Assembly (NCBI GenBank): GCA_021160985.1
Contig: JAGHBN010000151.1
Location: forward strand, 1 to 36,840
Origin: Thermococcus sp.
GTDB lineage: Archaea > Methanobacteriota_B > Thermococci > Thermococcales > Thermococcaceae
Reading direction: 5' to 3'
Length of the DNA: 36,840 nt
Position 1 is the first letter of the stretch, and the number at the start of each line of letters is the position of its first letter. The position numbers and the translations under genes are program-made. Under the pieces are notes generated by a model. The model was not told the DNA's origin. It made no database searches and saw nothing but the letters and a program-made list of their open reading frames with translations. Shown here piece after piece: positions 18,285 to 19,482 of this stretch.

Positions 18285-18372
18285 CTTCCCTTTCCCATTT
18301 TTGTTCCGGAAGGGTTTTAGCCTCTTTTCACTTTTCTCCACTGGAGTCCCACTCAGAGAGGTGACCAATGAA

Positions 18373-18616
18373 GGGGCAAAGCTTCGCCCCCTGCAACCCC
18401 CGGCTCTGAAAGGTGATTGAAATGGAAGTAGAAAAAAAGAAACTGAAGATATACATCCCCGGCGTTAAATTCCCCCCGCAGGACCGGGGGGTTTCACCCC
18501 CCACGTCCTTGCTAACCTCCTCCCCCCGAAGGTGGGACTCCACCCCACATAAAGGGGGAAACTACGTTTCCCAGACCCTTCCTTATCCCCTAAACACCGG
18601 AGGGGGCAAAGCCCCC
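18373..18616. repeat. Hairpin-rich GC segment
   Basis: GGGGC-N8-GCCCC (18373-18390); GGGGGG-tttca-CCCCCC (~18486-18502); GGTGG-gact-CCACC (~18531-18544); GGGAAAC-tac-GTTTCCC (18556-18572); GGGGGC-aaa-GCCCCC (18602-18616). Confidence 0.7.
18422..18475 (+). pseudogene. 5' remnant of a second radical SAM gene (MEVEKKKLKIYIPGVKFP...), truncated
   Basis: KKLKIYIPGVKFP is identical to the N-terminus of the 18646 gene; 24-nt exact repeat 18452-18475 = 18673-18696; homology stops at the hairpin-rich segment. Confidence 0.65.
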
Positions 18617-18645
18617 TACAGCCCCCATTCTAAGAGGTGAGCTAG

Positions 18646-19482
18646 ATGACAGAACGAAAAAAGCTCAAAATCTACATCCCCGGCGTTAAATTCCCCTCAA
18701 TCTCGCTCACCGGGAGCTACTGCTTCCTCAACTGCGCCCACTGCGGGAGGCACTACCTTGAGGGCATGAAGAAGCCCAAGAAGAGGGAACTCGTTGACTT
18801 CTGCCTCAACCTTGAGCGCTCCGGAGGTTTGGGCTGTCTGCTGAGCGGAGGTATGGACTCCCGCCTGAAGGTGCCAATCGACAAGTACGCAGACGAGCTG
18901 AGGGAGATTAAGGAGAAGACCGGTCTCAAGCTCAACGCCCACGTCGGCTTTATCGGGGAGGAAGACCTGGAGTGGCTGAAGTACGTTGATGTCGTTTCTC
19001 TCGACTTCGTTGGAGACGAAGATGTCATACGGCGCGTTTACAGGATAGGCAAGACAGTTGAAGACTACCTGAGGATAGTCGAGCTCCTGACAGAAAACGG
19101 AATCCGCGTGGCGCCCCACATAACCATTGGCTTGGACTTTGGGAAGATTCACTGGGAGTACAGGGCAATAGACCTGCTCACCCAGTATCCGATAGACGTC
19201 CTCGTGCTGGACGTACTCATACCGACGAAGGGAACGGAGATGGAGAGCGTTCCAAAGCCTAGCGTTAAGGAAAGCCTTGATGTCGTGAAGTACGCGCGCA
19301 AGCATTTCGATGGAGAGATAAGCATAGGCTGTATGCGTCCCACCGGACAGTGGAGGCTTGAGTTCGATAGAGGGGCAGTCCTGGCAGGAGTTGACAGGCT
19401 GACGAACCCGCCGAGGAAGGTCATCGAGTGGGCAAAAAGTGTGAGGGACGTCGAGATAATCTACGAGTGCTGTGTTATGTGA
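18646..19482 (+). CDS. Radical SAM protein; candidate archaeal lipoyl synthase component (LipS1/LipS2 type) by synteny
   Basis: CFLNCAHC (CxxxCxxC). Position after eno-padR-MMPL matches, from memory, the T. kodakarensis TK2106-TK2109 order. Confidence 0.7.
   Translation: MTERKKLKIYIPGVKFPSISLTGSYCFLNCAHCGRHYLEGMKKPKKRELVDFCLNLERSGGLGCLLSGGMDSRLKVPIDKYADELREIKEKTGLKLNAHVGFIGEEDLEWLKYVDVVSLDFVGDEDVIRRVYRIGKTVEDYLRIVELLTENGIRVAPHITIGLDFGKIHWEYRAIDLLTQYPIDVLVLDVLIPTKGTEMESVPKPSVKESLDVVKYARKHFDGEISIGCMRPTGQWRLEFDRGAVLAGVDRLTNPPRKVIEWAKSVRDVEIIYECCVM

Follow-up and report, generated by a model that had tools for sequence, protein, structure and literature searches.

A recurrent start cassette at the lipoyl synthase gene lipS1 of Thermococcus

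In about half of Thermococcus species the gene lipS1 is preceded by a severed copy of its own start and a short, hairpin-rich insertion, and this start cassette is a recurrent, genus-wide arrangement rather than the remnant of a deleted duplicate. We hypothesize, with a probability of roughly 60%, that the start cassette has been exchanged at lipS1 and that the mini-ORFs upstream of the gene are kept open so that ribosomes entering behind the native promoter can reach the start now in use. The upstream ORF consists of the severed lipS1 start continued into inserted sequence, and we found no published description of it at lipS1 in the open-access literature.

The DNA analysed (the window) is a stretch of 36,840 nucleotides from a draft Thermococcus genome of 192 contigs. 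From its translated product, the gene downstream of the duplicated start is assigned as lipS1, encoding the lipoyl synthase LipS1: the product matches NCBIfam NF053742 over its full length (residues 10–276) with a score of 346.8 bits against a curated cutoff of 230, matches Pfam Radical_SAM and carries the radical SAM CxxxCxxC motif as CFLNCAHC. The upstream neighbour encodes an MMPL-family transporter. TK2109, the LipS1 lipoyl synthase of Thermococcus kodakarensis, belongs to the same family, and the T. kodakarensis genome (G011) has the same arrangement upstream of a gene ending at 1894519, the end coordinate of TK2109 in PMC9014305; a key-term search of the LipS1 characterisation paper (PMC9585515) returned nothing on a leader or duplicated start. 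Across the family lipS1 is effectively single copy and occurs in 90 of 94 genomes, weak second matches tracing to brief stretches of unrelated radical SAM genes, to the severed start or, in two draft genomes, to genes split between contigs. The 3′ end of the T. kodakarensis gene (1894519–1894579) is also the site of reported circular RNA reads of C/D-box size, which begin at the last base of TK2109; the circle was unconfirmed by RT-PCR in that study (PMC9014305).

The features of the duplicated start, all on the forward strand, are as follows.

18315 to 18320, +: candidate native promoter element, a weak TATA-like TTTTAG, at the position equal to TTATAT in relatives
18368 to 18409, +: ORF0, a 13-aa mini-ORF with the ribosome site GAGGTGA, stopping 12 nt before the ORF1 ATG at 18422
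18373 to 18390, +: hairpin GGGGCAAAGCTTCGCCCC, left over from a former copy of the cassette, judged by its resemblance to the right-hand cassette hairpin
18422 to 18640, +: ORF1 (72 aa), the severed lipS1 start (18422–18475) continued open through the cassette, with its stop 5 nt before lipS1
18452 to 18475, +: upstream copy of the exact 24-nt repeat
18477 to 18527, +: left part of the cassette (51 nt), the most conserved, with matches seen only at lipS1
18528 to 18626, +: right part of the cassette, with three hairpins of which GGGGGCAAAGCCCCC at 18602–18616 comes last; related to dispersed hairpin tracts
18627 to 18645, +: imported leader with the ribosome site GAGGTGA, adjoining the lipS1 ATG at 18646
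18646 to 19482, +: lipS1, LipS1-family lipoyl synthase (radical SAM), 278 aa
18673 to 18696, +: downstream copy of the exact 24-nt repeat, inside lipS1

The 24-nt repeat TACATCCCCGGCGTTAAATTCCCC is the sole exact direct repeat of at least 18 nt found within 800 nt in the window, and exact direct repeats of even 14 nt or more appeared in just 13 of 200 shuffles; around it, a wider register of 46 nt is 85% identical at a spacing of 221. The hairpins GGGGCAAAGCTTCGCCCC and GGGGGCAAAGCCCCC are each followed by a C-rich stretch and a GGTGA ribosome site. A first-pass annotation of the sequence had placed the repeat, the hairpins, the C-rich stretches, the ribosome sites and the short ORF from 18422 correctly, and had missed ORF0, the third mini-ORF, which contains the upstream hairpin. 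ORF0 is probably a decayed older native start, and equivalents with gaps of 5–12 nt occur in four other genomes (G024, G015, G033 and G073). As for the upstream hairpin, 18381–18401 matches the right-hand cassette hairpin at 95% over 21 nt.

The upstream regions of most lipS1-bearing genomes of the family were read, and empty and filled states were scored by regular expression and by eye. A severed start with cassette is present at 33 of about 57 loci in the genus and absent from all 28 loci that were read in sister genera. In all 33 the junction falls after the codons for KFP(S/P), except that one reads KFPL (G010). On the lipS1 tree, whose 57 same-genus rows comprise 32 filled, 4 collapsed and 21 empty, presence and absence require 12 changes, and the well-supported branches force at least seven for the label "empty". 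The number of empty rows is an upper bound, since four genomes so scored (G075, G076, G079 and G080) have a short upstream ORF resembling the collapsed form. The first-pass annotation had held that relatives with one copy and no short ORF would mark a recent local duplication without selective history; the survey is mixed on this point, with 21 single-start genomes beside the 33 duplicated loci and 4 collapsed remnants.

Comparison of filled genomes with empty relatives gives the arrangement a polarity. The empty G008 matches G089 at 98% upstream of copy 1 and at 75% upstream of copy 2; the empty G030 matches both G095 and G009 at 89% upstream of copy 1 and at 71–72% upstream of copy 2, and the pairs G020/G034 and G002/G092 give 81–83% and 71–73% respectively. 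In one exception, G086 against G088 and G094, native and imported leaders are not separated (0.74 versus 0.77 for G086/G088). Because what the empty genomes share is the sequence ahead of copy 1 and not that ahead of copy 2, these alignments identify the upstream copy as the old, native start and the present lipS1 leader and start as having arrived with the cassette. The synonymous differences between the two KKLKI stretches, previously read as coding selection on both copies, are explained by the divergence of native and imported starts and hence do not demonstrate selection on the short ORF.

Close pairs bear on the spread of the cassette. The filled G081 is ~97% identical to G076 over 4 kb downstream, a figure that falls to ~80% across the ~180 nt that open lipS1; the nearest relatives of those first 180 nt are G080 and G075 (93%), and of the remainder G076 (96%). 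A milder divergent patch covers the first ~115 nt of lipS1 between G086 and G028. Such patches within the 5′ end of the gene are consistent with short tracts, one end lying inside lipS1, having been exchanged by homologous recombination, and their pattern suggests that the cassette spread in this way.

The stretches between successive starts are open more often than composition predicts. Between the repeats, no stop interrupts the ORF1 frame in 31 of 33 genomes (it is broken in G034 and G035), and the other two forward frames contain stops in 30 and 26 genomes. Among 41 stretches that run from one start to the next, 39 end within 20 nt of the next start or overlap it, against 19.9 expected from dinucleotide shuffles, although the genomes are related, so that these and the other open-frame counts overstate independence, and short ORFs are often open by chance. 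Most gaps between an upstream stop and the next start lie between −7 and +12 nt, and a further 12 upstream mini-ORFs, a biased set picked by eye, behave alike. The strongest individual cases are the interiors of G023 and G086 (424 and 357 nt), which have no stops against 5–8 in the other forward frames (P of an open frame from shuffles, 0.004 and 0.010); homologous stretches elsewhere in the genus all contain 1–5 stops, except for a stop-free one of 47 aa in G021. In G012, a +1 and a −1 indel together restore the ORF1 frame. A substitution test for stop avoidance expected about 3.6 stop-creating changes (probability of zero, 0.024), two events flagged by the script having been judged by reading codons to be alignment artefacts of loop variants.

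The encoded peptide, by contrast with the frame, drifts. Copy 1 accumulates amino-acid changes, for example S, R, C or D in place of the G of the IPG motif, and the long interiors of G023 and G086 differ equally at the three codon positions (27/26/24, no third-position excess), with dN 0.27 and dS 0.46; coding selection on the ORF1 peptide was rejected on these grounds. An excess of open frames together with peptide drift points to selection for an open, translated-through frame rather than for a defined peptide. The suggestion that the short ORF is a selected leader peptide thus survives for its frame and fails for its product.

We therefore arrange the proposed exchange of starts as follows. 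A segment of ~150 nt, rich in hairpins, was inserted at the KFP(S) codons and brought with it a leader, a ribosome site and the first ~17 codons of lipS1, so that the imported start now opens lipS1 and the old one remains upstream under the native promoter. Thermococcus species have repeatedly gained, lost and exchanged the cassette, and the most likely route is homologous recombination in which the 5′ end of lipS1 supplies the homology. As the promoter region of the old start is still upstream, the severed start would be kept as an open frame reaching nearly to the new start, and ribosomes would pass from ORF0 to ORF1 to lipS1 by termination–reinitiation. Such a translated bridge would keep transcription and translation coupled and would avoid a long untranslated leader that invites FttA-dependent polar termination; polarity in T. 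kodakarensis, with FttA as its likely cause, is summarised in PMC12548453.

Upstream comparison indicates that filled genomes have kept the native promoter region, and TTTTAG at 18315–18320 is the candidate element in the window, proposed from relatives with the same context (such as G008/G089). On the other hand, lipS1 could have its own promoter inside the cassette, where a TATA-like box (TTTTAAAC) with a good match is present in many genomes. This internal box is absent from seven short or rearranged variants and is degraded in several standard cassettes, so that in these at least lipS1 should be reached from upstream. The upstream ORFs that act by termination–reinitiation (reviewed in PMC12548453) likewise stop within a few nucleotides of, or overlap, the downstream start, and ORF1, 5 nt from lipS1 in the window, ends well in the range of a coupled upstream ORF (open to ~30 nt of the next start or overlapping it); at lipS1, however, the upstream ORF was assembled from the severed start of the same gene and inserted sequence, and the peptide it encodes lacks conservation.

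The cassette itself, ~150 nt with four predicted hairpins, is unevenly conserved. Its left 51 nt, which contain the hairpin GGACCGGGGGG-TTTCA-CCCCCCACGTCC (18481–18508), have a mean identity of 96.5% that is uncorrelated with lipS1 divergence (rho 0.02); the right 99 nt have a mean of 87% (rho 0.51), and the fourfold sites of lipS1 differ at 52%. An open frame alone would not require the nucleotide-level conservation of the left part, a hint of some further function. One explanation is a regulatory leader, with selection acting on RNA structure: hairpins and ORF1 together would serve as an attenuator or a translational switch and tune lipS1 expression to a signal. The conservation of the left part, the four hairpins and the ORF1 stop at the lipS1 start speak for it, but just one of the 42 predicted pairs has changed on both sides, several pairs in the hairpins are disrupted, the folding z-score of the element is only −1.77, Rfam gives no match at gathering level, and many relatives lack the element altogether. 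Neither the covariation nor the Rfam match that would identify a riboswitch or structured cis-RNA was found, and we regard a regulatory leader as unlikely. Rfam matches below threshold, to Clostridiales-2 among others, fall on the minus strand with scores far short of the cutoffs and were taken as chance. That the circulating start cassette is kept because the translated mini-ORFs and the hyperconserved hairpin regulate lipS1 is likewise rather improbable; if true, this would be a case of translation-dependent leader control in archaea.

That the arrangement is a neutral leftover, a functionless local duplication whose frame is open by chance in GC-rich sequence, gains from the roughly 30–57% chance, in shuffles, that a standard-length cassette is open, and from the peptide drift and even codon-position differences described above. 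Chance accounts poorly, however, for the recurrence across the genus, the hyperconserved left part, the open long variants and the compensating indels of G012, and we think this explanation improbable.

The insert could also derive from a mobile element that once integrated at an attachment site in the lipS1 start, in the manner of integrases that use tRNA or protein genes as targets and restore them, the hairpin segment being what remained. Target-restoring integrative elements of archaeal tyrosine recombinases (PMC8371274, a review that lists attB sites inside protein-coding genes) are likewise flanked by direct repeats of a target gene that they reconstitute. At lipS1, direct repeats of the target gene do flank the insert, always at one site and with the gene restored, and the interiors of G023 and G086 are longer. 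Yet the inserts span only about 70–460 nt and contain neither recombinase nor cargo; viral contigs, plasmids and phages yielded no match to the cassette, no full-length or gene-bearing relative, no integrase and no attP-like copy; the same short interior recurs across many species; in several genomes the two flanking repeats have diverged from each other; and the patches of divergence reach into the gene body, as in homologous recombination. We accordingly give a mobile relic little credence. One draft genome (G089) has both a full lipS1 cassette and a version with an internal deletion (L211/L212, on contigs C85 and C42), which suggests a strain mixture or a recent deletion.

A deleted tandem lipS1 paralogue, the first-pass proposal, which is favoured by an upstream copy that encodes the lipS1 start with a ribosome site, is very improbable and was rejected: the search for two intact tandem genes found none among the 90 family genomes with a lipS1 match, the severed copy ends at the same codon in 33 of 33 loci, and in empty relatives the native leader sits directly on lipS1.

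The right-hand modules of the cassette resemble hairpin-rich tracts dispersed in the genus, and the left part was found only at lipS1; no copy beyond lipS1 was found in the window's own draft genome. Such noncoding tracts, several hundred nucleotides to about 1 kb long, are intergenic in many Thermococcus genomes (noted in L080, L082, L083, L084 and L074, about positions 900–2200 of each) and share modules that include GTGGGGCTTCGCCCCAC, GGGAAACTACGTTCCC and AAACTTTGC...GCAAAGTTT; we found no description of these tracts in the open-access literature. In several species, a conserved GC-rich hairpin pair is flanked by apparent Hsp20 and AAA-ATPase genes (around position 1500 of L073, L075, L077, L078, L079 and L081), ordered as in the lipS1 cassette and without a duplicated gene start. 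Since none of the 21 other hairpin-tract loci examined has a duplicated gene start, the arrangement appears specific to lipS1. The small intergenic mobile repeats and MITEs of prokaryotes (PMC10969869, PMC2759123) are likewise short, hairpin-rich and akin to dispersed genome sequences; the cassette differs in having a left part confined to lipS1, a single insertion site and no target-site duplication seen beyond the gene start itself.

On our reading, that the start cassette is exchanged and bridged by open mini-ORFs, lipS1 would be a gene whose translation start has been replaced repeatedly through the exchange of a short cassette. Its start annotation and leader length need checking in cassette-bearing genomes. 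The natural series of single, double and triple starts within one genus, including the model organism T. kodakarensis, offers a ready test of selection for translated leaders (polarity avoidance) and of termination–reinitiation in archaea.
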